The notes beneath the pieces were generated by a model. It saw only the letters and a list, made by a program, of their open reading frames with translations. It was not told where the DNA came from and ran no database searches. This document shows positions 46,239 through 58,601 of a stretch of 64,000 nt of DNA, one piece after another. The stretch comes from Herminiimonas sp. KBW02 (lineage in GTDB: Bacteria; Pseudomonadota; Gammaproteobacteria; Burkholderiales; Burkholderiaceae_D). A program made the position numbers and the translations under genes. Every line of letters begins with the position of its first letter. The stretch's first letter is position 1. Location: the NCBI RefSeq assembly GCF_003852535.1, contig NZ_QAJP01000003.1, positions 248,001 to 312,000 on the forward strand, written 5' to 3'.

Positions 46239-46325
46239 TTTGGTATTGTAGGAAGCCATAGAAGATGAAAATTAAGTCATTCCCGTGAAAACTTTTTTTC
46301 ATGGTTGATGAAAACATCTAGATTC

Positions 46326-46355
46326 AAAAAAGCCCAGCATGTGCTGGGCTTTTTT
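46326..46355 (+). terminator. Terminator of gyrB
   Basis: AGCCCAGC and GCTGGGCT with a four-base loop, preceded by A and followed by a T run; it also reads on the minus strand after the retron reverse transcriptase gene. Confidence 0.92.
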
Positions 46356-46411
46356 ATTTTTCTTGAACTCTTCGACATGCATTCAGAGACAGATGGTTTT
46401 TGATTATTTAT

Positions 46412-47434
46412 TTACTTCGATTTAGTGCCTCGCACTTTTAGACTTTTTTCTACTCTCTCATCCATAATCGTCTGCCATTCTGATTTGTAGCGAGTCAATA
46501 AAACTTCCTTGCGGACTTTGTAGAGTGGGTTGATTTGCTCGGCCTCAGATAAGCGCCCTATCAAACTGCCTAGAAGCTTCTTCCTCATAGATCCACTTAC
46601 TGCCTGAGCTAATGCTTGGCTAGCGACTCTTACAAGCTTGGCTCGACGATGAGGTAGACGCAACATACCTTTATAGACCACTAGGCCTGTAATAACCGTT
46701 GGTACTTGATGATATGTTTTTATTTTGTGGTATCCGTAGCCGAACCGGTGAATAATCATTGCGATAGAAGTCAGTAGCGCCCTCGAAGCTTTGTCGCCAG
46801 ATATCGTCATATCGTCGACATACAAAGTAAACTTGCAATCATGTGCGCGGCATAGCGCGTCTATCTCGTCAAACATCACTTTATTAACGAGAAAAGAAAG
46901 AAGTGGACTTATACAGCTACCAGTTGGTAAATGGATTCCGAACTTTAATGTTGTGACCGTACAGAGCTTTGCAAGGATTGTTGAAATATCTGGAGCACAA
47001 GACATCTCGTTTTTAAAAAAATCATAAACATAATGAAATTTTACCGACGGGAAAAATTTTCGTATGTCGATTTTGAGAACAGCAGAAGAATGTTGATGAG
47101 CTTCAGCATTCGTCTTATATGAATGCTTCTTTCTCGCTGAATGAAGATAGGGAGGACACTGTATACGTGTGAGTAAATCCAGTAGTCGCCGATGGACCAA
47201 TAGTAGGTCGCTATGCGGTTCGGTGATAAAACGAGAAGTCTGTTTGTCTTTGAATATTTTATATTGAGAGCAAATAGCGGATTTCTTTAACCCCAATATT
47301 TTACTTGGCTCTACTCCCAGTAAATCTGCGAGCTTACGTTTGTTGGACAAACGGTAAAGTGGAGAGCTCTCCAGATCATACTTTTTTGATCCTCTGGTTG
47401 GATTCTTCGTCATCGCTATCTGCAATCCATTCAA
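46412..47434 (-). CDS. Retron-type reverse transcriptase
   Basis: The 340-residue protein has the reverse transcriptase core: KIDIRKFFPS at 121-130 (first catalytic Asp), LPTGSCISPLLS at 169-180 and YVDD at 205-208. Two retron hallmarks are visible: NAxxH (NAEAH, 109-113) and a VTG-like motif in VITGLVVYKG. It is therefore a retron enzyme, not a group II intron or DGR protein. It overlaps the Xre gene by 59 bases; an alternative start at 47413 reduces this to 38. The putative msr-msd RNA locus lies upstream, past the Xre and 76-residue genes. GC content is lower than in the core genome. Confidence 0.9.
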   Translation of the reverse strand: MNGLQIAMTKNPTRGSKKYDLESSPLYRLSNKRKLADLLGVEPSKILGLKKSAICSQYKIFKDKQTSRFITEPHSDLLLVHRRLLDLLTRIQCPPYLHSARKKHSYKTNAEAHQHSSAVLKIDIRKFFPSVKFHYVYDFFKNEMSCAPDISTILAKLCTVTTLKFGIHLPTGSCISPLLSFLVNKVMFDEIDALCRAHDCKFTLYVDDMTISGDKASRALLTSIAMIIHRFGYGYHKIKTYHQVPTVITGLVVYKGMLRLPHRRAKLVRVASQALAQAVSGSMRKKLLGSLIGRLSEAEQINPLYKVRKEVLLTRYKSEWQTIMDERVEKSLKVRGTKSK

Positions 47435-47696
47435 GTATTTTCAGCATTTTTTTTGAAATAAATGCGCGTGCTTTATTCATATTTTGAGAACCATCTAAGG
47501 TCTCCGAAAATACGACAAGTGATGAAAGCGGCACATTGAAGACCTCGGAATATTTATTGAGAATATCCAAAGATGGTTCTTTCTTACCTGACTCTAGTTC
47601 GGAAAGATAAGAGGTTGAAATCGACAACTTCCCAGCTAACTGCGTTTGATTCAGGTTGTGATACTGACGTATAACTTTAAGTGCATTGCTTAACAT
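47376..47696 (-). CDS. Xre-family helix-turn-helix protein of the retron
   Basis: The 106-residue protein has an N-terminal HTH_3 domain (LSNALKVIRQYHNLNQTQLA, SISTSYLSELESGKKEPS) and a C-terminal helical tail rich in Lys and acidic residues. It overlaps the reverse transcriptase gene and is its partner. HTH-associated retrons form a known type (I recall type VI), in which the small protein may be the effector or a regulator of it. Confidence 0.82.
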   Translation of the reverse strand: MLSNALKVIRQYHNLNQTQLAGKLSISTSYLSELESGKKEPSLDILNKYSEVFNVPLSSLVVFSETLDGSQNMNKARAFISKKMLKILEWIADSDDEESNQRIKKV

Positions 47697-47730
47697 GATG
47701 GTCTTTCCTCAATAATGGAAGGGCGCACAG

Positions 47731-47961
47731 TTAGAAGTCGGCATGCGAGAAAAACTCTCGCATATAAGACCAAGCTTTCTCTGCGTATTCCGGCACAGTA
47801 ACGATGCAGAAATTCCACACCGATGGACGTAACAGCAACCAGCGCAAACTGGCTTTGAGGAGTTTGGTTGCACCGTTTTTGCGTTCAACTTGAATGCAAG
47901 GCCCGGTGCCTTCTTTTGACTTCTTCCCGTGCGTCGGGCGGACTGTAGTTTTAGTTACCAT
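47731..47961 (-). CDS. 76-residue basic protein at the head of the retron genes
   Basis: The protein begins with a basic, disordered stretch (TKTTVRPTHGKKSKEG) and continues with a hydrophobic-aromatic helix region (LKASLRWLLLRPSVWNFCIV). It lies directly behind a hairpin and U tract, with AGGA before its ATG. I do not recognise it. It may be a third retron component; the amphipathic, partly hydrophobic middle would suit a membrane-active effector, but that is only a guess. Confidence 0.6.
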   Translation of the reverse strand: MVTKTTVRPTHGKKSKEGTGPCIQVERKNGATKLLKASLRWLLLRPSVWNFCIVTVPEYAEKAWSYMREFFSHADF

Positions 47962-47973
47962 ATGGTTCCTATA

Positions 47974-48005
47974 GTTAAAAAAGACATTAGTCGGGTGACT
48001 AATGT
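47974..48005 (-). terminator. Intrinsic-terminator-like hairpin downstream of the retron RNA
   Basis: On the minus strand ACATTAGTC and GACTAATGT form a 9-bp stem with a four-base loop, followed by CTTTTTT. It lies between the ncRNA and the 76-residue gene, so some read-through or a second promoter is needed for the proteins. A second hairpin, GGAAGC-GAA-GCTTCC, lies just before it (48006-48020). Confidence 0.8.
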
Positions 48006-48040
48006 GGAAGCTTCGCTTCCCCCTCGCCCTTTTTTAACTT

Positions 48041-48235
48041 AGAGAGACCGTCCCGAATACCCTTCATCCATTCTTGACCTGATCGCCGCCCTCGGCGATC
48101 AGGTATGCATTCAGTCAATACCGGATATTTCGATGATTCGACGTGTCCGGATAGTAGACCGAGGCATGGTTTTGACAGCGATTACCTGCTGTCGAGAGCA
48201 AATGCTCAAACTACTTCGAGGTTTCTCTTTACTAC
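48041..48235 (-). ncRNA. Putative retron msr-msd RNA
   Basis: Read on the minus strand from about 48235. The 5' part contains AGAGAAACC (48220-48228), which pairs at 8 of 9 positions with GGTCTCTCT (48041-48049) near the 3' end, as a1/a2 repeats do. Between them: a stem-loop GAGC-ATTT-GCTC (48196-48207) with a U-rich loop typical of msr; GACAGC / GCTGTC (48174-48193); CCGGA / TCCGG with inner TCGA pairs (48121-48150); and a perfect 11-bp stem CCTGATCGCCG / CGGCGATCAGG (48078-48103), a good msd stem. The branching G was not placed. This is structure by eye, not folded by program. Confidence 0.7.
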
Positions 48236-48241
48236 CCGGCC

Positions 48242-48270
48242 AATATATACGGGGCAAAGTTGAAATGCAA
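48242..48270 (-). promoter_or_regulatory. Promoter of the retron RNA
   Basis: On the minus strand TTGCAT (48270-48265), 17 bases, TATATT (48247-48242). Transcription would start near 48235, just upstream of the a1-like repeat. Confidence 0.75.
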
Positions 48271-48271
48271 G

Positions 48272-48298
48272 AATAAATTCGCTGATGGCGAATTTATT
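48272..48298. repeat. Perfect 11-bp inverted repeat beside the retron promoter
   Basis: AATAAATTCGC and GCGAATTTATT with a five-base spacer, ending two bases upstream of the -35 box. It may be an operator, possibly for the retron Xre protein. Confidence 0.65.
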
Positions 48299-48354
48299 TC
48301 GCTAAAACACGCAATCTCTTTGCGCGCCTAATGGCGGATGTTGGGTAATTTTCT

Positions 48355-48388
48355 ATGTTGCATTTTTATAGCAAAATTATAGCAACAT
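48355..48388. promoter_or_regulatory. Inverted and direct repeats upstream of the xre gene
   Basis: ATGTTGC and GCAACAT are separated by 20 bases and enclose two copies of TTATAGCAA, 82 bases before the xre start. It could be an autoregulatory operator. The 508-base gap 47962-48469 is otherwise filled by the retron RNA, its promoter and these repeats. Confidence 0.45.
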
Positions 48389-48469
48389 GTTGATTTTAAA
48401 AGGAATTTTGTGTTTTCGTCTGAATCTTGCTAAGATTTATTCAATTAAATTAACAAGGTTGGGCTGATC

Positions 48470-48814
48470 ATGACGCCATTTTCAGCGTTTTTAAACGGCA
48501 TTTGTCGGTCTCGCGGAATGCTACAAAAGCAGGTCGCCTATATGACCGGAGTTGATCCGTCATATCTGAGCGCGATGGCTCGTGGTAAGAAGTCTCCTAC
48601 TAGTAGTTTTGTACAGCGGCTTGAGAAAGAACTAAACCTTGATCAACAAGAGTGCCAGGCCTTGTCAGAAGCGGTGCAATTCTCGCAAAGGCTTTATCGG
48701 ATCCCTTCTGAAGCTAACGAGAGCGAACATGAAATGGTTTGGCAGATCATGAGCTTAATAGGCAAGCTAAGGCCGGCACAGATAAGTGCGATCAATGCGA
48801 TTTTGAAGCTGTGA
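48470..48814 (+). CDS. Xre-family regulator preceding the transposition genes
   Basis: The 114-residue protein has an HTH (LQKQVAYMTGVDPSYLSAMARGKKSP) and a C-terminal helical region (MVWQIMSLIGKLRPAQISAIN). It lies 216 bases before tnsA on the same strand and divergent from the retron, so it may regulate one or both. The gap 48815-49030 shows a GGGAC / GTCCC repeat but no recognisable transposon end. Confidence 0.75.
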   Translation: MTPFSAFLNGICRSRGMLQKQVAYMTGVDPSYLSAMARGKKSPTSSFVQRLEKELNLDQQECQALSEAVQFSQRLYRIPSEANESEHEMVWQIMSLIGKLRPAQISAINAILKL

Positions 48815-49030
48815 GCGAAGGTAAAGCAATGGAGAACACTATGTAGAAAAACAAACGGGACGAACCTTTGATGGGCTGTCCCGCTGGGTGATGCAGATAG
48901 TACTGAACGTGGAAATTCTAGTATTGTCCTCTTCCTTCCCGCGGTCAAGCCCCCTACTCATCTTCGATGAACAAGTTTTCGCCGAGGAATGGATCAGTTT
49001 TGGTCCATTTATGGCGATGCGGGGAATGCT

Positions 49031-49732
49031 ATGCCTAACGATTTTGTATCTCGCTCGGAATCGGCCACACCCGCCTTGGGAAACCAGAGAATACGTGCAC
49101 GTGAACCGGTTGGGCGCTCATTTGGTTCTGTGCGCGGAAAGTTCCCTTCGCAAAAAATGGGCCGAATGATTCACTGGGAGAGTCAGCTTGAGCGTGATGC
49201 AGTGTATCTGTTTGAGTTCTCCCCTGGTGTTCTTGCGTACAGAGAACAACCATTCAAAACGTATTACACGTTGGCTGGAAAGACGCGTAGGTATACGCCG
49301 GACTTTGAACTAACACTAGCCAACGAAGAGCTATTGTTAATCGAAGTAAAGCCTATGGAAAAACTACAAGACATAGAAGAGCAACGTCGCTTCGAATGCA
49401 TCTTCGAACATTTTTCCGCACATGGAAAATCGTTCCGTGTTCTTACCGAAATACAAATTCGCCAGTCTGATTTGCTCGACAACTTGCGCATGATGATGCG
49501 CTATCGATGCAAACCATTGACAAAATTTCAGCGGCTGCGCTTTGCTGAGCAATTTACTGGTAGAGACGCCATTTCTTTTGACGAGGTCCGAATTCTTTTC
49601 GGAAGTTGCGAGACAGTATGGATGTTAATTAACGAAGGACTCTTAATCTGTGATCTAAAAGTTGAAGTGGGAGCTGGCACAATTTTCTCGACTTCCGCTA
49701 AAGGAGATTCGTATGAAGACTTTCTCTTTTAA
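49031..49732 (+). CDS. tnsA: TnsA-like transposition endonuclease
   Basis: The 233-residue protein has the TnsA restriction-like nuclease core: IHWESQLERDAVYLFEF (first Glu), YTPDFELTL (Asp) and ELLLIEVKPME (the E-x-K pair). It cuts the 5' strands at the element ends so that the element leaves by cut-and-paste with TnsB. The start at 49031 has GGGGA upstream; an earlier ATG at 48989 does not. Its end overlaps tnsB by 20 bases. Confidence 0.9.
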   Translation: MPNDFVSRSESATPALGNQRIRAREPVGRSFGSVRGKFPSQKMGRMIHWESQLERDAVYLFEFSPGVLAYREQPFKTYYTLAGKTRRYTPDFELTLANEELLLIEVKPMEKLQDIEEQRRFECIFEHFSAHGKSFRVLTEIQIRQSDLLDNLRMMMRYRCKPLTKFQRLRFAEQFTGRDAISFDEVRILFGSCETVWMLINEGLLICDLKVEVGAGTIFSTSAKGDSYEDFLF

Positions 49733-51698
49733 AGTCGGTACATCTCTAAAGATTGATTCTCAAATGTTCAAAATTGAACGGATGCTTGAAGACAGTCAGG
49801 TACAACTTGAAAGCTTGACGGACGGAACATTGATTCGAACTTCTATAGAAGAACTTCTAAAAGGTTATGCGGACAAGAGAATTATTTTTGTAGAAAAATT
49901 GTCAGAAAAGCAGATCCCGGAGTTGCCATTGAACCGTTCAATTTCAACTTTCGCAGAGCCAATTCAAGCGAATGCAATACGAAAAAAGAGATACCTCGAC
50001 TTCATTCTTGGGATGGGTCCTTTTGTATCAACAAAAGACATTCTCGATCAACAGATATCTGAATTTGCGAAGAGCATTAATGATGTAAATCCTCCATCAT
50101 CAATTTCTGTATATAGATGGCATCGAGAGTTGTTACGTCATCATGGCGATTATCGCGCGCTCATAGATAGACATGATCGTAAGGGTGGTTTGGGAAGCAG
50201 ACTTCATCCTGGTACATGCACAGTTGTACAAGACGTGATCGATGAAATTTATCTATCAGAACAAAGAAACTCAGGCGAGACAGTATTCTATGAAGTCGTC
50301 TATCGCATCAACAAGTTAAATGAGTTCCTCGATGAAAGAGAGAAACTACCGGTGCCAAGTAAGTCGACGATCAATCGTGCTATCGCTAGTCTAGACCACT
50401 ATGAAAAGACAGCCGCTCGTTTCGGTGCCCGCTATGCACAAATGAAGTACCGGACGAGTGGTCAAGGAATTAGAGCAACTCGTATTCTCGAATGTGTGGA
50501 AATTGACCATACCCCTCTCGATCTCTTTATTATCGACGACGTGACAGGCTTGCCGTCGGGGAGACCAACCGTTACGGTGGCCATCGATAAATACTCAAAG
50601 ATGTTGGTCGGATTGCATGTCGGATTCTCTGGCCCGTCATTAGAAGCCGTATTCGCCTGTCTCAGACATGCTTTAACTCCCAAAACATACATCAAGGAAA
50701 GCTATCCGGAGATAGAAGGAGATTGGCCATGTCACGGACATATTGAAACGCTCGTTTGTGATAACGGGCTTGAATTTCACAGCAAAGAGCTTGAGCGGGT
50801 CGCGCTGGAGGTTGGTGTGTCAATGCAATACTGCCCCAAAAGACAGGCTTATTACAAAGGTTCTGTAGAGCGGTTTTTGAAGACGCTCAATTACCAGTTT
50901 TCAAGAGAGATACCAGGGCATAGCTTCCCTAAATGGTTTCATCGGGAAGACTATGATCCGCAAAAACATGCCTTAGTTACCTTTGACAAGTTGATGAGGC
51001 TCTTGCACAAATGGATTGTCGATATATATGCACGACAACTGCACCGAGGCATCAACACGTCCCCCTATAAAAAATGGCAAGATGGCGCCAAATCTGTGCC
51101 ACCTAAACTGTTGACAGATTTGAATAGGCTGGACGTTTCTCTGGGACGTACATGCGAGCGCGTTATCTGGCATTACGGTATTGAGCTGCACAATATCCGA
51201 TACAACGACAATGCACTCTTAGTGCTCCGCCGTCAGCACGGCGAAAAGAAGAAGTTTCAAGTTAGATTTTACTTTGACGATATCTCGGTCATTCACGTCA
51301 TTGACCCGTTAACAAAACAAACCATAGCAGTTCCTGCATTAGCGCAAGATTACGCGCGTGGCCTAACAATGGAGCAACACCGTCTAATCGGAATTCGCGC
51401 ACGTGACACAAACGCCGGCGTTATTGACATCACTTCGCTCGCCCGAGCCAAGCATGAAATTCGCCAGTTCATTGATGAGTTATCAATCGACAAATCCCAA
51501 CGTATTCGGCAGCGAAGCGCCAGAATAAAAGCTATTAAACAAAAAAAACAGCCGAACTTTCTTGATGATTCAATTGCCAAGGAAAACGTTCGCAGGGCTC
51601 CGCCACCCCCCTCCGCTCATATCGAGAACGATGAGTTGCCAGACTTCGGCTCTGCCGTCTTCACACGTCGTTCTAAAACAAAGGGTAGTCAATCATGA
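49713..51698 (+). CDS. tnsB: TnsB-like DDE transposase
   Basis: The 661-residue integrase-superfamily transposase has the three catalytic acids at about 265 (VEIDHTPLD), 349 (LVCDNGLEF) and 386 (KGSVERFLK). N-terminal helix-turn-helix regions bind the end repeats, and a C-terminal basic tail interacts with TnsC. The start at 49713 follows AAGGAG; the longer frame from 49662 lies inside tnsA. It overlaps tnsC by four bases. Confidence 0.93.
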   Translation: MKTFSFKVGTSLKIDSQMFKIERMLEDSQVQLESLTDGTLIRTSIEELLKGYADKRIIFVEKLSEKQIPELPLNRSISTFAEPIQANAIRKKRYLDFILGMGPFVSTKDILDQQISEFAKSINDVNPPSSISVYRWHRELLRHHGDYRALIDRHDRKGGLGSRLHPGTCTVVQDVIDEIYLSEQRNSGETVFYEVVYRINKLNEFLDEREKLPVPSKSTINRAIASLDHYEKTAARFGARYAQMKYRTSGQGIRATRILECVEIDHTPLDLFIIDDVTGLPSGRPTVTVAIDKYSKMLVGLHVGFSGPSLEAVFACLRHALTPKTYIKESYPEIEGDWPCHGHIETLVCDNGLEFHSKELERVALEVGVSMQYCPKRQAYYKGSVERFLKTLNYQFSREIPGHSFPKWFHREDYDPQKHALVTFDKLMRLLHKWIVDIYARQLHRGINTSPYKKWQDGAKSVPPKLLTDLNRLDVSLGRTCERVIWHYGIELHNIRYNDNALLVLRRQHGEKKKFQVRFYFDDISVIHVIDPLTKQTIAVPALAQDYARGLTMEQHRLIGIRARDTNAGVIDITSLARAKHEIRQFIDELSIDKSQRIRQRSARIKAIKQKKQPNFLDDSIAKENVRRAPPPPSAHIENDELPDFGSAVFTRRSKTKGSQS

Positions 51699-52681
51699 GA
51701 AAGCACAAAGATGCTATAGGCTTCTTCGATGAACTCAGGGCGGTGGAGAACATTCTAATACCTCACAGCGGTTTTACAAAAGTGATGTCTCGTTTGAGAA
51801 AGGCCATCGAGTTCTCGCAACAGGGTGCGGAGCCTCGACATACATTGTTGGTTGGCGAATCGGGAACTGGAAAGACCTGGCTGGCACAGCACTTCGCGTC
51901 ACTGTATCCGCCAAGGCTTAATCCAGATGATGTCATAGGTCCTATTCCGGTTCTAATTGTAGAAACACCCGCCATTCCATCTTTGAAAGGGCTCGCGGAG
52001 GCGATGTTAATGGCGCTTGGAGATCCATTGTTTTTCAAAGGAACGGCGGCCGAAAAGCGAAATCGAGCTCTTGATCTATTAAGGCGGCGCAATGTTGAAT
52101 TTCTAGTCCTAGATGAATTTCAACATTTTCTCGACCATGGGAAATTTGATTCACTTATTGCCGTGTCCGATTGGCTGAAACGCTTCATTGATGATGCTAG
52201 CGTGCCCTGTTTGCTGATGGGCTTGCCACGATGTGAGGGGATTCTTCAGGTTAACGAACAACTGCGTCGTCGGTTTTCATCTCGTCTGAAGCTATCTGCA
52301 TTCTCATTAGACACAATGGAGGGAGAGCGGGAGTTTCGAGCGTTAGTACATCAGATCGATAAATCGCTTCCTACCAGCGAGTTATCAAAACTCGCAGATG
52401 TGGATATGGCCAGGCGGCTTTACTTTGCGAGCAATGGTCTTATCGGTTATCTACGCCCGTTGATCACGGCAGCTTATGAGTTAATGGTTATCGAAAAAGC
52501 GAGCAAATTGGATGCGACTATATTTGAACAAACCTTTATCGATGTAATTTGGAAGGACGGTCTGAAGTCGCTTAATCCCTTCAACAAAGCTTTCCAATTC
52601 AGGCAATTGAATCAAATTGGTGAGCCGTTTGCACCGGCGCCAGTACATGTTCGAAGTGTACGCGCTCGTTATCGCTCATGA
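51695..52681 (+). CDS. tnsC: TnsC-like AAA+ transposition regulator
   Basis: The 328-residue ATPase has Walker A GESGTGKT (54-61) and Walker B FLVLDEFQHF (D140, E141). It links target recognition by TniQ to the transposase. It overlaps tnsB and tniQ by four bases each, so the module is one translationally coupled operon. Confidence 0.93.
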   Translation: MRKHKDAIGFFDELRAVENILIPHSGFTKVMSRLRKAIEFSQQGAEPRHTLLVGESGTGKTWLAQHFASLYPPRLNPDDVIGPIPVLIVETPAIPSLKGLAEAMLMALGDPLFFKGTAAEKRNRALDLLRRRNVEFLVLDEFQHFLDHGKFDSLIAVSDWLKRFIDDASVPCLLMGLPRCEGILQVNEQLRRRFSSRLKLSAFSLDTMEGEREFRALVHQIDKSLPTSELSKLADVDMARRLYFASNGLIGYLRPLITAAYELMVIEKASKLDATIFEQTFIDVIWKDGLKSLNPFNKAFQFRQLNQIGEPFAPAPVHVRSVRARYRS

Positions 52682-54492
52682 AGAGATCAACACTGCATCC
52701 AATAAAGGCAGAACAAGGGGAAAGCTTGAGAGGCTATCTTCTTAGATTGAGTACGGCTTATGGTTGGCCAGGCATGGGTTGGTTAAAAGAACTGCCTGAA
52801 GAGGTCCGACGGTTACGTACCATGATAGGAGTCTCTGTGCATGGCAGGATACCGTCATGGCTTCGAGAGCGGGGAGCGGCGCTTTTGTCAGGAGACCTAA
52901 GTCATCACCACTATCTGGGAAAGCTTTCACGTTGTTGTCCCGACTGCCTTATCGAATATCCATTCTGGAGGATTGAATGGGAACATATCTTCTATACCGT
53001 CTGTCATGTTCATCGGCATCTACTTCGTGATCAGTGCCCTGAATGCAATGCTTACCTAACATGGGACCGTCCCAGTCTTACCCATTGTAGATGTGGTTCC
53101 TCAATACTTAGTTGGCGTAGTGCCGATGTTCTGACTGACGAATCCCAGTTATGCGCTGCTATATCAAAGAGAATCCTTTACGAATGTGGTCTTCAAGCTT
53201 CCTGGGAAGGGAATACGGAAATAGATACGCTAAAAGTGCTGAATCTTCATGCGTTAGTGCGTTTGATATTTACATTTGGTACTTATGTAGATAGAGGAAA
53301 AAATTTAGGTACCGGCCTAGCTAAATTTAGCAAGGTGAGTGATGCACACAAAATGACCCGACTTACCTCAATTGCAATAACGAATTGGCCATTCAACTTT
53401 TACGAGTTCTTAAAAGAAAACATCTCATTTGATCTGAGAACAAAAACAGCAAAGCAATTTGCTAAATTTTCGAGACTAGTTCGCAAACAGGCCAGAAAGA
53501 ACGGGGAACTTGATTTCATCGCAAGAGAACTTCAAGACTATTTGGCGAAGTATGGTGCGCGACTACTGGACCGCAGAAATAGCTGGGCGACTAGAGAACA
53601 GAGAGTAGAACAGCGTTACATGCCAGGAACACTTGCAGCAAAGATTTTAGGGGTTAAGAGAGCGGTTATTGCCGACCTGGTACAGAAAGAGATTTTGGTT
53701 GGTTACAGTATCAAAACTAATAAACGGAGTTATCTCGTCATTGAGCGAAGTTCGCTTAATAAAGCTAAGTACTATCGGACGAATATGCTCACATTCACTG
53801 ATGTGATCGCCATATTAAACCTATCGCGCAGACGTACGAATGACCTAGTAGGGGCAGGCATTTTGGATGAAACACGCGAAAGAGGTATACGAATATTTTG
53901 TAAAACCCAAGTTCAGAAATTGGTCGAGACCTTATCTATTCCTAAAAAATTGCACTCGCCCGAAAATACGCCCATTTCAATGGGGTCCGTGTTAAAGAGC
54001 CACATAGCTTCAGGAAAAGAATTTGTTTTAATGATGCGTGCGATTCTTTCCGGTGATATATCAACCATCGGTACGCCGGAATCGAAAGATGGTATTGCGG
54101 GGGTCCTACTGGATCGTACGGAATACTATGATTGGCGATCTCGTTTCACTTTATGCCAGGGAGATGAGCAATGGACTCTTCCCCAATTAGCCAAGAAATT
54201 GGGGTTCAAACAACAGGTTATTTATCATCTTGCCGGCTCAGGATTGTTGCAATCGCTAACGCAAAAATCTGGGAGAAGGAAATACAGAGTTGTTACCCTT
54301 GCAGCCCTAAATGAATTTGAGGATAAATACATATCTTCGGCGCAACTCGCAAAGCTTCGCAATACTTCGCCAAAATTTATCATCAAGAATTTAATGACAG
54401 AAGGAATCGTGCCAATTTCTGGCCCTTCCATAGATGGTTGTCGACAGTACTTTTACAAAAAAAATGATGTCGCACTCATGCGGGTCTTGTAG
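52678..54492 (+). CDS. tniQ: TniQ/TnsD-family target-selection protein
   Basis: The 604-residue protein starts with a TniQ domain (GESLRGYLLRLSTAYGW) and zinc ligands (C87, C90, C120, C123, C137, C139, with H110 and H113). The long C-terminal part contains several helix-turn-helix-like segments (FTDVIAILNLSRRRTNDLV, LPQLAKKLGFKQQVIYHLAG). The length is in the TnsD range, longer than short TniQ proteins of CRISPR-guided elements, which suggests recognition of a fixed chromosomal site. No CRISPR or cas gene is in the window. Confidence 0.88.
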   Translation: MKRSTLHPIKAEQGESLRGYLLRLSTAYGWPGMGWLKELPEEVRRLRTMIGVSVHGRIPSWLRERGAALLSGDLSHHHYLGKLSRCCPDCLIEYPFWRIEWEHIFYTVCHVHRHLLRDQCPECNAYLTWDRPSLTHCRCGSSILSWRSADVLTDESQLCAAISKRILYECGLQASWEGNTEIDTLKVLNLHALVRLIFTFGTYVDRGKNLGTGLAKFSKVSDAHKMTRLTSIAITNWPFNFYEFLKENISFDLRTKTAKQFAKFSRLVRKQARKNGELDFIARELQDYLAKYGARLLDRRNSWATREQRVEQRYMPGTLAAKILGVKRAVIADLVQKEILVGYSIKTNKRSYLVIERSSLNKAKYYRTNMLTFTDVIAILNLSRRRTNDLVGAGILDETRERGIRIFCKTQVQKLVETLSIPKKLHSPENTPISMGSVLKSHIASGKEFVLMMRAILSGDISTIGTPESKDGIAGVLLDRTEYYDWRSRFTLCQGDEQWTLPQLAKKLGFKQQVIYHLAGSGLLQSLTQKSGRRKYRVVTLAALNEFEDKYISSAQLAKLRNTSPKFIIKNLMTEGIVPISGPSIDGCRQYFYKKNDVALMRVL

Positions 54493-54523
54493 TGGCTTAC
54501 ATATCGAAAGATGGCTTTATACA

Positions 54524-54988
54524 ATGCGAATTTTTATTGATACAGAATTTAGTGATTTCGTTAACCCTGAGCTGATAAGTATTGGTTTGGTTGCAGAGTG
54601 TGGGGAAGATGAATTTTATGCTGAGCTTCCAGTAGATCTGAGCCGCTGTAACAATTTCGTTCTTGCCATAGTCCTTCCTCAATTATGTCATCTGCCAGGC
54701 GTCTTATATGATCGATCACAATTGCAGATGCGTTTAATTGAATGGCTTAATAAATATGAGAAGGAAGCTCCAATTATCATTTCATACGACTACGAAGGAG
54801 ATTGGATTCTATTCTGTGATTTGATCGGTAATGATATTCCTGAGTGGATTTCAGGTGAGAATATCTATCCATATATTGATCCCGTGGCTTTGCATCGGTT
54901 CTTTATCGAGAGGAAACTGAAAGATCATCATGCATTGAATGATGCTAAAGCTAATCGCTATGCTTACACGCGAAGTGAATGCGAATAA
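54524..54988 (+). CDS. DEDDh 3'-5' exonuclease-like protein
   Basis: The 154-residue protein has the exonuclease pattern: MRIFIDTEFSDF (D6, E8), ISYDYEGDW (D93 or nearby) and DHHALNDAKANRYA (H135 or H136, D140). It resembles the short stand-alone RNase T-like family typified by mycobacterial Rv2179c. It follows tniQ after 31 bases and may be cargo of the element. The ATG at 54524 is chosen; a longer frame from 54434 overlaps tniQ. Confidence 0.75.
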   Translation: MRIFIDTEFSDFVNPELISIGLVAECGEDEFYAELPVDLSRCNNFVLAIVLPQLCHLPGVLYDRSQLQMRLIEWLNKYEKEAPIIISYDYEGDWILFCDLIGNDIPEWISGENIYPYIDPVALHRFFIERKLKDHHALNDAKANRYAYTRSECE

Positions 54989-55019
54989 TCAAGATATAAG
55001 TGATAAAGGACAGCCAAAT

Positions 55020-55208
55020 ATGAGGAGAAGATTTCAAAAAAGATTTCTCTATGCCCGTCTAGTTGCTGAGCATAAAAGCTCAACTCTCGATATAAGACGA
55101 CCGGATAAATTCAATGACCCTCTACAATTCGGTAATGAAATATGGGGGAAGGTCTTGCCCGTCGGTAGAGAGTTTGGCTCTGATCTATACAAAAATCATA
55201 AAAGCTGA
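55020..55208 (+). CDS. Small hypothetical protein, low confidence
   Basis: A 62-residue frame (MRRRFQKRFLYARLVAEHK...) with AAGGA nine bases before the ATG. It is basic and not recognised. It may be a remnant; the following 230 bases hold no gene. Confidence 0.35.
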   Translation: MRRRFQKRFLYARLVAEHKSSTLDIRRPDKFNDPLQFGNEIWGKVLPVGREFGSDLYKNHKS

Positions 55209-55438
55209 ATGTGATGTCAGGATGATATATCCGATTTTCTCAGAGAGCGTATTCTCTTCTGCTGCCGGGTAAAGACTGCTATCCATTCATGTGAACTTGA
55301 AATTTTAATCGCCGTACACTAATGACGTTAACGCTAAGCACTATGTGTATGCCGAAAGCTGGATCTAAACGATCAAAATTTATTAGTTTATTGAGCTGAC
55401 TAAATCTCGAATTGTTTCCGACTATTTTCGAGGTAAGT

Positions 55439-56026
55439 TCAACGTTCATAACCGCGATCGCGATTCAGTTCTTTTTCGTGCAAGAGTTCCATGTTAAGTT
55501 GCCGTTGAAATTCTGATAGCGATAAATATTGTGAAATACTTCCATCGCTATTGATGCCGGCAACCAAACTAAAATCATTCATGCTTAACCCGCCCCCACC
55601 ATTTGAAGCCTTTTTAAATTTTGCAAAGCTCTCAACATAATGCTTAAAAGATTTAAATTCTATTCCGCTCGCTAATACTTCATTAACGTCGTTCTTTTTG
55701 GTGGAACTGAAATAAGTCTGGTAGTTCAGTAGGATACTTGGACGGGTCTTATCTCCCTTGGATCCAAATACGATCAAATGGTGACCATCGCTATTCGATA
55801 ACGCTTGCCTAGCGTTTGTGTAATTTATAAATTTTGCTTTCTCACTATTAATGGAGATTTGATCTTTCTTAAACTCAATCAAGATCCATTTTTCATTTTT
55901 AGAAAAAATTGCATCACCCGCTTGTTCGTGCGTTCCGTCAAGTGGAGAAAGAAACATCCTCTCCATTGCCATTACACTTACTACAAATTTATACTCAACA
56001 GTTTTTTCCCACCAAGTAATACTCAT
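55439..56026 (-). CDS. PD-(D/E)xK-like nuclease candidate
   Basis: The 195-residue protein shows a nuclease-like core: GDAIFSKNEKWILIEFKKD gives D38 ... E51-x-K53. The flanking glutamate and the LIVFGSKGDKTR strand fit the fold. The second half has no recognised domain. Before insertion of the 515-bp element at 56103 it would have lain about 90 bases behind the TIR gene on the same strand and may have been part of that operon. Confidence 0.55.
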   Translation of the reverse strand: MSITWWEKTVEYKFVVSVMAMERMFLSPLDGTHEQAGDAIFSKNEKWILIEFKKDQISINSEKAKFINYTNARQALSNSDGHHLIVFGSKGDKTRPSILLNYQTYFSSTKKNDVNEVLASGIEFKSFKHYVESFAKFKKASNGGGGLSMNDFSLVAGINSDGSISQYLSLSEFQRQLNMELLHEKELNRDRGYER

Positions 56027-56102
56027 TCTCGATATCCTATATTTGGGAGCAATGCTTTTTTACGTACGTTAAATCTTTGCGAGCAGAAAAATTGATCTAA
56101 AC

Positions 56103-56617
56103 TGAGTATTCGCATAAAAATTGCTACCGAATAGCATCGCAAAGTTGCCACTGATGCGCATTGGTCAATGTCTGCTTTCGGCCAAAAGCGGATATCACTT
56201 GGTAGTATCTTGAAGTGCTAACAATTTGAAGCGAGTCATTCAATCCATGAAAACCAAAATTCTATCTTCATCGTTAGAAAGGCTAAAGCCATTCGCACAC
56301 CTAGAACCTATCATTTACGCTTTAATTGAAATTGGTAATAAGCCCACTTCAGTTCCTTGGTTTTCAGTTGACAAAGATGGTTGGTATTGCCAACTCCAGT
56401 ACCCGATAGATTTTGATTATCTAGAAACTAGATTTGAGTTCCCCCCTTCAATAAATATTTCGCGAGGGAGCGGCGGTATTTTGGATACTTTGACGTGGAC
56501 TGAAATTAATACGAAGTGACGCCAGCATTAACTAATGCGAATAGGTGGCACTGTTGAGATGCGACTAGGTGGCAACTTTGCTTTGCTAACTAATGCCAAC
56601 CTTCATGCGAATACTCA
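56103..56617. mobile_element. 515-bp non-autonomous insertion element with target duplication
   Basis: The ends are perfect 13-bp inverted repeats, TGAGTATTCGCAT (56103-56115) and ATGCGAATACTCA (56605-56617), flanked on both sides by CTAAAC (56097-56102, 56618-56623), a 6-bp target duplication. Homology of the ends extends inward (GCAAAGTTGCCAC at about 56138-56150; GTGGCAACTTTGC at about 56569-56581), and the right end has two copies of ATGCGA(A/C)TAGGTGGCA. Multiple internal terminal repeats recall IS21-type ends. No transposase gene is inside, so an outside enzyme must act. Confidence 0.85.
56247..56519 (+). CDS. Passenger ORF of the 515-bp element, 90 residues
   Basis: The product begins MKTKILSSSLERLKPFAHLE and contains VPWFSVDKDGWYCQLQYP, a Trp/Tyr-rich small domain. 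The family is not recognised. No clear ribosome site is visible. Lying wholly between the inverted ends, it is either the captured cargo of the element or leftover DNA. Confidence 0.45.
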   Translation: MKTKILSSSLERLKPFAHLEPIIYALIEIGNKPTSVPWFSVDKDGWYCQLQYPIDFDYLETRFEFPPSINISRGSGGILDTLTWTEINTK

Positions 56618-56630
56618 CTAAACAGAGCAT

Positions 56631-57533
56631 TTACTTCATTACTTTGTTCCAGTCAATATTGTGACCTGCGGCATTTAGCTCTCGGCCTAGGGCCGTCTTC
56701 CAGCCATTTCCTACATCCATGGCTTCCCATACAACACCGGCAAAATCACTTGGTATCTCTACCTCGCTTCGCTTAAGGGCACATACATTTTCACGCCCCA
56801 ACTTACCAATGAAGTAGCCTAGTTCTAGAAGCACGTTTTGCCTAGTACGCGGTTCTAACTCGATATCGTTTTTCGCTTTACCTAAATCGTCTGGGGTAAG
56901 GAGAACAACGGCAAAACTTACATCACTATTGGCTTCAACCTTCTCAATAACCGTACGCCCTCTATTGGCCTGTTCGTGAAGAATTATCGGATTTAACCCT
57001 ATACTGCTGAGAAATCGAGCAACGGTTTCCCGTGCTTCGCCATCATGACCATGAACGATAAAAATTTTATTCGATTTTGATTGCATTAGCTTTGGACTAA
57101 GGCTCCCATGATTTATGACATAAGTTTTATAGTCCCTAGCGAATGGAATTATTACTTGTCGGGTGAATGCTTGTAGTCCAGCGATTACTTTTCGACCTGA
57201 GTAGAAAAATTGATTGCAAAAATTAAGTGCATAGTCTGGGTCAGCTGCAAATTTGTCCAACAATATTAAAGTCAGACCTAGAATTTTTTCAGGTTCATCC
57301 GGCCAAACAAGTTGATGACTGCCGACCATGCTTCCACCAGTCGTTTCACTTTCATGTATGAAGGCGTCGAAATCCACATTGGTAATTAGTGAGCGATTTA
57401 TTTCCTCCAAACTAGGATGATGTAAAAGGCGCACGAGCGCTTTTAATGGCCGCTCAAATGATTGTTGCTGTGCGGCTTGTATATCAAGAATTGCATTATT
57501 GATTTGTAGGAATAAATCTAAATCGTCAGACAT
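56631..57533 (-). CDS. TIR-like nucleotide-binding domain protein, probable defence effector
   Basis: The 300-residue protein has a helical N-terminal half (about 1-150) and a C-terminal TIR-like domain (about 156-285): NKIFIVHGHDGEARETVARFL, EQANRGRTVIEKVE, FAVVLLTPDDLG and NVLLELGYFIGKLGREN, with the catalytic-type Glu in LLELGYF (E237). This is the pattern of the PF10137-like TIR group found in CBASS and related systems, which degrade NAD+. No cyclase gene is nearby. It overlaps the 94-residue gene upstream by eight bases. Confidence 0.82.
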   Translation of the reverse strand: MSDDLDLFLQINNAILDIQAAQQQSFERPLKALVRLLHHPSLEEINRSLITNVDFDAFIHESETTGGSMVGSHQLVWPDEPEKILGLTLILLDKFAADPDYALNFCNQFFYSGRKVIAGLQAFTRQVIIPFARDYKTYVINHGSLSPKLMQSKSNKIFIVHGHDGEARETVARFLSSIGLNPIILHEQANRGRTVIEKVEANSDVSFAVVLLTPDDLGKAKNDIELEPRTRQNVLLELGYFIGKLGRENVCALKRSEVEIPSDFAGVVWEAMDVGNGWKTALGRELNAAGHNIDWNKVMK

Positions 57534-57810
57534 CTGTACTCCCTAAACGTATTGCGGCTGCCCGATCGATAATTGCCTCTCGATAATGCTCTTTCATCTG
57601 TTCGGCGAGTGGGCCAATAAAGGAGTTGTCAGCATACTCCCCGAGCTTTTCATTGATTATCGTCTCAACACTTAAGATCGCGGCTTCAATACTTGCAGGG
57701 TCATTGGCATCAAAGGTTACTGTGCCGAGCTCGCCATCCAAAGTTTCAAGTGCCATTTCTGCATTTTTTAGTTCTTGGCTTAGCTCATCAAGCCCAGTAA
57801 TTTTAATCAT
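57526..57810 (-). CDS. 94-residue partner of the TIR protein
   Basis: An acidic helical protein starting MIKITGLDELSQELKNAEMA, with SFIGPLAEQMKEHYREAI near the end. Its stop overlaps the TIR start, a clear two-gene unit. The family is not recognised; it may be a sensor or an inhibitor of the TIR enzyme. Confidence 0.65.
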   Translation of the reverse strand: MIKITGLDELSQELKNAEMALETLDGELGTVTFDANDPASIEAAILSVETIINEKLGEYADNSFIGPLAEQMKEHYREAIIDRAAAIRLGSTDV

Positions 57811-57848
57811 GAGATTTAGAGTAAATAGTAAGTATTAAATTTGGGGAG

Positions 57849-57876
57849 GAAGCCAACTTAGAGTTGGCTTCTTTTT
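57849..57876 (+). terminator. Strong hairpin with T tract on the plus strand
   Basis: GAAGCCAAC and GTTGGCTTC with a five-base loop, followed by TTTTT. Genes on both sides are on the minus strand, so as drawn it would stop only antisense transcription. Confidence 0.6.
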
Positions 57877-57886
57877 GGGTTGGCTT

Positions 57887-58102
57887 TCATTTTCTTCGTA
57901 GGGCACGTGCAATGGTAACAATGCCAAAGACAAACAAAATCAGGGGGAATCCCCATGAAACGTCTTTGGATATCCAGCCCATTCGTTCTGCTATGAGCAA
58001 TGCACCTGCAGCTAAGGCAAAAATACCAACACCTAAACCCTCCCATAAAAGAGGACTAGTAAGGTTGGTTTCGGACCCTGCTTCATTTGATTCGATCGCC
58101 AT
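57887..58102 (-). CDS. Small two-helix membrane protein
   Basis: The 71-residue product (MAIESNEAGSE...) has two hydrophobic helices (VGIFALAAGALLIAERMGWI and GFPLILFVFGIVTIARAL) and a basic end. It starts four bases after the stop of the DUF2188 gene; an earlier start at 58165 would overlap it. Confidence 0.65.
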   Translation of the reverse strand: MAIESNEAGSETNLTSPLLWEGLGVGIFALAAGALLIAERMGWISKDVSWGFPLILFVFGIVTIARALRRK

Positions 58103-58106
58103 ATTA

Positions 58107-58331
58107 TTAACCCTTGGGTGGATATGGATCGTTGCCGAAGCTATCCTTATCCCTGATTTGGCCATTCGGTCTGTGAATGATTAATTCAGAGTTCTGGTTC
58201 TTGGCAATTTCACGCCCTGCATTTATTGCTTCGCGTTGCGTTGAAAACGTTCCTGTAACGCGAGAAGAGTTTTCGCGGCGGACTGCCCACTCACCGTTGT
58301 GAGTGACGACGTGTTGATTTGATTTTTTCAT
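58107..58331 (-). CDS. DUF2188 protein
   Basis: The 74-residue protein matches DUF2188: QHVVTHNGEWAVRRENSSR, TQREAINAGREIAKNQNSEL and IHRPNGQIRDKDSFGNDPYP. The fold is small and beta-rich; function is unknown. It forms a pair with the following membrane protein gene. Confidence 0.85.
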   Translation of the reverse strand: MKKSNQHVVTHNGEWAVRRENSSRVTGTFSTQREAINAGREIAKNQNSELIIHRPNGQIRDKDSFGNDPYPPKG

Positions 58332-58506
58332 AGCATTTATCGCTTATAAAATAGGTTTTAAAACGTTAGTAAAGCATCGTGTTCGACAAAAGAACTGCCA
58401 CGATATTCGCGTGCCAGCTTCTAAGAAGCGCTGGATGTCCTGGGTCCAATTCCTTTGCCGTAGCCCTGACTTTTGATGGTTAATCGCTAGTCATGCTGAT
58501 TATTAT

Positions 58507-58563
58507 ATAGCTAAAAAATAGCTAGTCAATAGCTTTGACATGGCTATTTTTAATTTATATAAT
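58507..58563 (+). promoter_or_regulatory. Consensus promoter overlapped by four phased operator repeats
   Basis: TTGACA (58535-58540), 17 bases, TATAAT (58558-58563): both boxes match the sigma-70 consensus fully. Heptamers ATAGCTA (58507), ATAGCTA (58518), ATAGCTT (58529) and ATGGCTA (58540) recur at exactly 11 bases and run across the -35 box. Direct repeats phased to one turn are typical targets of ribbon-helix-helix dimers such as the product of the next gene. Confidence 0.85.
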
Positions 58564-58601
58564 GTAGGTATGAAATAACAGGCAATGGTTGGGGGAACAC
58601 G

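Follow-up and report, generated by a model that had tools for sequence, protein, structure and literature searches.

A 515-bp element with IS21-type ends around a single small gene in Herminiimonas sp. KBW02, and its cargo-bearing relatives in the genus

A segment of 515 bp in Herminiimonas sp. KBW02 is very probably a non-autonomous mobile insertion cassette of the IS21 family, moved in trans by the IstA and IstB proteins of a complete relative. It occupies positions 56103–56617 of the window, which here denotes the whole analysed stretch of 64,000 nucleotides (contig NZ_QAJP01000003.1, positions 248,001 to 312,000). Mobile insertion cassettes consist of the ends of an insertion sequence (IS) around a passenger gene, and the 515-bp element shows just this organization: IS ends and a passenger, with no transposase. 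The one small passenger gene is enclosed by two end segments, each about 85 bp long and bearing a terminal TG...CA inverted repeat together with repeats of 24-bp period; in the proposed mechanism, the IstA transposase and the IstB ATPase of a complete relative would insert the cassette in trans, and this insertion would have duplicated 6 bp of the target.

The termini TGAGTATTCGCAT and ATGCGAATACTCA are perfect 13-bp inverted repeats of the TG...CA type, and the inverted similarity extends imperfectly further inward, the outermost 59 bp of one end being 73% complementary to those of the other. Among the perfect 13-bp inverted position pairs with a spacing of 60–2000 bp in the whole window, one of ten has an identical 6-bp flank, namely the pair of the 515-bp element; no 6-bp duplication at a 13-bp inverted pair occurred in 100 dinucleotide-preserving shuffles (mean 2.71 pairs each). 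The boundary of the element is soft by one base, as the C flanking each side also permits a 5-bp duplication; the boundary given here agrees with the TG...CA ends and the 5–6 bp duplications of most related elements. The length, 13-bp ends, CTAAAC duplication, inner repeats and 90-codon frame described in an earlier sequence-only reading were all recovered to the base (Table 1), and its proposal of a non-autonomous insertion agrees with the presence of inverted ends and a target duplication around 515 bp that hold no transposase gene. The insertion may be recent, as was also proposed, to judge by the intact ends and duplication.

Inside the termini, a scan for the unit TTGCCACCNATTCGCAT located inner sites with a period of 24 bp, ending at positions 35 and 59 counted from the left terminus and at 35, 59 and 83 counted from the right one. 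This spacing is also seen directly in the right end, between ATGCGAATAGGTGGCA at 56535 and ATGCGACTAGGTGGCA at 56559, and between the two copies of ATGCGAnTAGGTGGCA. Further matches to the unit at 129 (left) and 109 (right), with 6 mismatches each, were taken as chance. IS21-family ends are built from direct repeats, at least two in number, which lie 23 bp apart in the solved complex; the ends terminate in CA, and two complete repeats are required by IstA (PMC10122671). In keeping with this, the element has two inner sites on the left and three on the right (one of them degenerate), besides the terminus. The 24-bp-period repeats are probably binding sites for IstA. Many IS21 members make 5-bp target duplications, as stated in PMC11208146; the duplication found here, CTAAAC, is similarly short at 6 bp.

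Table 1. Features of the 515-bp element (window positions) and loci of a protein kept near istA in related elements. E-values are for the end sequence model R1, built from 23 ends that include both ends of this element.
Feature	Position	Strand	Remark
Target duplication CTAAAC, left copy	56097..56102		read directly; matching right copy
Left terminal inverted repeat TGAGTATTCGCAT	56103..56115	+	perfect 13-bp; R1 E=3.6e-16
Inner repeat, left end, putative IstA site	56121..56137	+	3 mismatches to unit
Further inner repeat, left end, putative IstA site, 24 bp further in	56145..56161	+	2 mismatches
Passenger frame, 90 codons + stop	56247..56519	+	ATG 56247, stop 56517-56519
Inner repeat, right end, putative IstA site	56535..56551	-	1 mismatch
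Inner repeat, right end, putative IstA site, 24 bp from 56535 copy	56559..56575	-	1 mismatch
Degenerate inner repeat, right end (site at 35)	56583..56599	-	6 mismatches
Right terminal inverted repeat ATGCGAATACTCA (as + strand)	56605..56617	-	perfect 13-bp; R1 E=4.6e-15
Target duplication CTAAAC, right copy	56618..56623		identical to left copy
295-372 aa protein near istA	L039 12364-13251; L038 7198-8106; L034 5320-6207; L134 1001-2119

An autonomous IS21 element contains istA and istB, and the 515 bp hold a single 90-codon frame. Complete istAB elements with related ends were found in sister species, which supports the earlier likening of the ends to the IS21 type. Herminiimonas contaminans Marseille-Q4544 (G005) has a 7744-bp element with istA, istB and a sulfate permease, flanked by a 4-bp duplication (ATAA). 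Genome G008 has two such elements, one of 13227 bp (L039 2715-15941) with istA, istB, arsB and chrA/chrB and the duplication CATAGC, and one of 10691 bp with istA, istB and an FTR1-type permease and the duplication ATGTCC. In H. fonticola S-94 (G011), istAB lie near one end, and the partner end was not found within the 12 kb fetched. The H. contaminans pair, the only IstA/IstB pair put through the NCBIfam cut-offs, scored above these curated thresholds: IstA reached 232 bits with the model for IS21 transposases, where 160 are required, and IstB 246 bits with the IstB model, where 200 are required. Across the four elements, the IstA proteins are 69–95% and the IstB proteins 81–97% identical.

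The terminus of the istAB elements of H. contaminans and G008 differs from that of the window element at 0–2 of 13 positions, and their ends have the same repeat pattern. Weighing against the IS21 assignment, identity to the window element over the ends is only 75–77% for the H. contaminans istAB element and 76–80% for the single istAB-linked end of H. fonticola. The closest ends belong to a 13807-bp element in G010 with the duplication ACGAA (left 91% over 87 bp, right 89% over 84 bp); among the complete istAB elements found, none has ends that reach this 89–91% identity. The cargo of this G010 element comprises arsenic genes, a phosphonate-type ABC transporter, a 2-hydroxyacid dehydrogenase and two IS30-like genes, as named from their translations or, for the dehydrogenase, by Pfam, and no istAB were seen among its translations. 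No match of its interior to the window element was reported, as would be expected if the ends are conserved while the cargo is exchanged.

A protein of 295–372 residues encoded near istA is kept in four IS21-type elements, with 55–83% identity (Table 1). The L039 copy matched no Pfam family, and the PHROG matches of the L038 and L034 copies were insignificant. It is possibly an accessory transposition protein.

The neighbourhood of the element offers another candidate for its source. Core genes of a Tn7-like transposon (TnsA, TnsB-like, TnsC/TniB and TniQ) lie in a row at 48989–54492, downstream of gyrB. The 515-bp element could in principle be a miniature of this transposon, moved by its TnsB, as the Tn7-like genes end 1.6 kb from it, ends with several transposase sites are common to Tn7-like and IS21 elements, and the TnsC of the window shares a stretch of 42–43 residues (35–43% identity) with three of the four IstB proteins. 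In addition, 12 of the 13 terminal bases are matched once more at 54979–54991, but this lone match has no inner repeats and was not listed by the end model at E≤0.01; we take it as chance. Nor was a further copy of the ends present near the Tn7-like genes, either among the best 25 of 30 inverted pairs from a repeat search of 46240–58600 or among the best 150 of 1090 candidates of the end model. The same best 25 of 30 inverted pairs in 46240–58600 included no identifiable ends of the local Tn7-like transposon itself. Tn7 makes a 5-bp target duplication, unlike the 6 bp found here. A Tn7-like origin is disfavoured, because related ends accompany istAB in sister species and no second full copy was found near the Tn7-like genes among the pairs and candidates just named, and we regard it as very unlikely.

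Next to the Tn7-like genes, an exonuclease-like gene (54518–54988, RNase AS-like, below cut-off) precedes a small frame (55023–55208) in which a PVGREFGS motif occurs; the lone end-like match at 54979–54991 lies beside the exonuclease-like gene. In L037 and L042 a like pair, as read by eye from the DNA, is situated directly within IS21-type ends; no IS21 end was found around the pair at 54518–55208 in the window.

A DNA search of 40 genomes with the element gave matches in ten (its own included), all from the same genus, and the matches to relatives were confined to query bases 1–94 or 425–515, i.e. to the ends. At E≤0.01 the end sequence model detected ends in 12 of 13 genomes of the genus, in G009 and G012 by one weak match each. 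At E≤0.001 it matched 22 of 145 family genomes and 12 of 44 genera; weaker relatives of these ends therefore exist outside the genus. The end pattern with at most one mismatch, a less sensitive probe than the sequence model, was found in one of 399 genomes of the order sample, this being the KBW02 genome itself, the sole genus member drawn, and blastn of plasmids with the whole element gave no match. For H. arsenitoxidans, the portion of PMC5670224 available mentions IS21 among the few insertion sequences and gives no details of the ends.

Pairs of ends were scanned for in 38 stretches of DNA (the window, L030–L046 and L127–L146) rather than in whole genomes. The 17 pairs obtained were reduced to 14 distinct ones by dropping L134 397-15352, which spans two elements and has no duplication, and the repeats L035=L131 and L040=L132. 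Exact duplications of 4–6 bp flank nine of the 14. The five others, which like the mere 4 bp duplicated at the H. contaminans istAB element count against the IS21 reading, are a 642-bp pair in G003, pairs of 2169 bp and 175 bp in the KBW02 genome, a 236-bp pair in G464 and a 9650-bp pair in G421. Outside the 14 is a pair of about 1.5 kb in G010, which the scan left unpaired and whose left end is without its first bases.

Elements with a single small gene recur within the genus, and the earlier view that short IS21-like derivatives with a passenger are unusual does not hold there. Three elements of 642 bp, in G001 (duplication GTAAA), G005 (CGTCAT) and G003 (no exact duplication), each carry one 158-aa gene of the DEDD exonuclease type. 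This label is tentative because the Pfam and NCBIfam scores are under their cut-offs: the G001 copy scored 26.9 bits against Pfam Rv2179c-like, just below the cut-off of 27, and 30.9 bits against NCBIfam RNase AS (cut-off 200), with a PADLOC match to DEDDh at E=0.001. Relatives of the exonuclease-like gene are also found inside or beside larger elements.

Another small element, of 782 bp, is found in H. fonticola (L131 1044-1825; duplication CTAGG). Its inner region is 79–91% identical to chromosomal DNA in five sister genomes with no ends detected beside it, and in G007 and G002 there is one end-like sequence beside it; weaker matches in G006 (Oxalicibacterium faecigallinarum), G009 and G012 lie outside this comparison. 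The pattern could reflect either gene capture or loss of ends. The site of the 782-bp element is a gap read as hom–thrC, and in G007 its joined flanks give an alignment that runs through the junction, with 84% identity over 1433 columns and small gaps near that point. The element is also absent from G010 and from the KBW02 genome, where the alignment breaks around the junction.

The KBW02 genome itself yielded further copies of the ends, as the sequence-only reading had proposed to look for, in the form of two more end pairs. One, on contig C15, spans 2169 bp around a 581-aa gene, read as an amidohydrolase from its translation, with four of five flanking bases alike; the other, on contig C11, is a degenerate pair of 175 bp. 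A profile search for IstB in the 16-contig assembly found none, its two matches being the dnaA of the window and an 808-aa frame below the cut-off; the element is therefore without an evident helper in this assembly.

The passenger frame may alternatively start at a TTG at 56226, which would give a protein of 97 residues. No Pfam, PHROG, NCBIfam or PADLOC match was obtained for the protein, and a single-sequence fold was unreliable (mean pLDDT 59.6). Proteins of similar length were found on Hymenobacter plasmids (seven records at E≤1, of which four reach E≤0.01, the best 1e-5), in G122 (E=5.9e-4; two of 300 genomes of an order sample matched) and in G432 (E=6.4e-13 with profile A2, made from the window protein, the G122 protein and three proteins of Hymenobacter, including one with E=0.2 in the plasmid search). 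Six aligned sequences of this family share 13 invariant columns. The family is rare: the profile matched one of 398 genomes of a phylum sample, the KBW02 genome only, and eight of 392 of a family sample at E≤0.01. These eight are the KBW02 genome, G432 and six weak matches (E=3.4e-5 to 0.0099) in longer frames of 158–754 aa, which were taken as chance. A profile search found the passenger in none of the 12 other members of the genus, and no relative was confirmed among 299 pattern-matching stretches in genome_contigs and 36 in viral_contigs.

These relatives bear on the question of whether the frame is a gene at all. The 515-bp segment could instead be a degraded remnant of a complete IS21 element in which the 90-codon frame is a chance frame and not a captured gene; short frames often arise by chance, and the lack of a match in the four family collections and the low-confidence fold would fit such an origin. 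This explanation is very unlikely: relatives of similar length on Hymenobacter plasmids, in G122 and in G432, with 13 invariant columns among six sequences, speak against a chance frame, and both ends and the target duplication are intact. The distant protein relatives thus back the passenger of the mobile insertion cassette as a real frame, and by sequence comparison it is a rare uncharacterised protein.

As to function, the plasmid relatives have as neighbours a MazF-type toxin pair, an Abi protein and a VbhA-type antitoxin, the G122 relative lies near genes for a C39-peptidase-like protein of 310 aa, a DUF6572 protein and a SUKH-type protein, and the G432 relative is a lone gene between duplicated segments. 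An immunity- or antitoxin-like role is no more than a guess suggested by the neighbours of these distant relatives.

The element occupies the gap between two minus-strand genes, one of 195 aa and one of 300 aa with a TIR domain, and interrupts neither. The 195-aa gene has no family match above cut-off. The TIR-domain gene (56631–57533) matches Pfam CAP12-PCTIR_TIR (E=9.3e-39) and the PADLOC candidate defence family PDC-S35 (E=5.4e-73). No empty site was seen: a flank search of 96 other family genomes, including three of the 12 other genus members, matched only element ends. Elsewhere in the window, directly downstream of gyrB (named by reading its 832-aa translation), the segment 46412–47696 encodes a reverse transcriptase (340 aa) and an HTH protein, the best matches of which are the PADLOC type VI retron models RT_VI (E=5.1e-81) and HTH_VI (E=1.7e-36).

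The 515-bp element resembles the IS21 family (IS21, IS5376) in its TG...CA ends, in two or more direct repeats about 23–24 bp apart and in a target duplication near 5 bp, and differs from it in its length of 515 bp and in having a passenger gene instead of istA and istB. The complete relatives described here also depart from the family pattern, in that they add kilobases of cargo and the conserved protein of 295–372 residues near istA. With mobile insertion cassettes, which have been described in Bacillus cereus, the element shares the lack of a transposase gene and would share movement by the transposase of an insertion sequence (PMC3281130); a qnrS2 cassette on the Aeromonas plasmid pAC3 is another example (PMC5444012). 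It differs from these in that its ends are of the IS21 type with multiple repeats and in that its passenger matches no gene known from resistance or metabolism. Like the transporter ISs (tIS) of PMC9330008, the complete relatives hold passenger genes within IS ends; unlike them, the window element has no transposase, and its relatives extend to 13.2 kb where istAB are present and to 13.8 kb where they are absent. No paper on an IS21 cassette stood out by its title or the start of its abstract in a literature search whose reach excluded most subscription journals and which took in, for the two largest result sets, the best 15 of 9,237 and 12 of 87 papers; this is weak evidence of novelty. Mobile insertion cassettes of other types have been described; what seems new is the IS21 version, in which single-gene forms occur alongside multi-kilobase ones.

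The 515-bp element belongs to a larger group of cargo elements of IS21 type in the genus. A wider proposal, which we put forward only tentatively and consider rather doubtful at present, is that in Herminiimonas and its near relatives this IS21 clade serves to carry cargo generally. It would comprise complete unit transposons of 8–13 kb with metal-resistance operons and matching single-gene cassettes without a transposase (with the exonuclease, the 90-aa protein and others), which the IstA/IstB of those transposons would move in trans; several of the small passengers would act in defence or competition. The IS21 family is familiar chiefly for insertion sequences of two genes and as a structural model of AAA+ regulated transposition. 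If the set holds, one such machinery would also move both multi-kilobase cargo and tiny single-gene cassettes within one genus, and its members, ranging from a few hundred bases to 13.8 kb, would form a natural series for asking which repeats IstA needs and how far it can act in trans.
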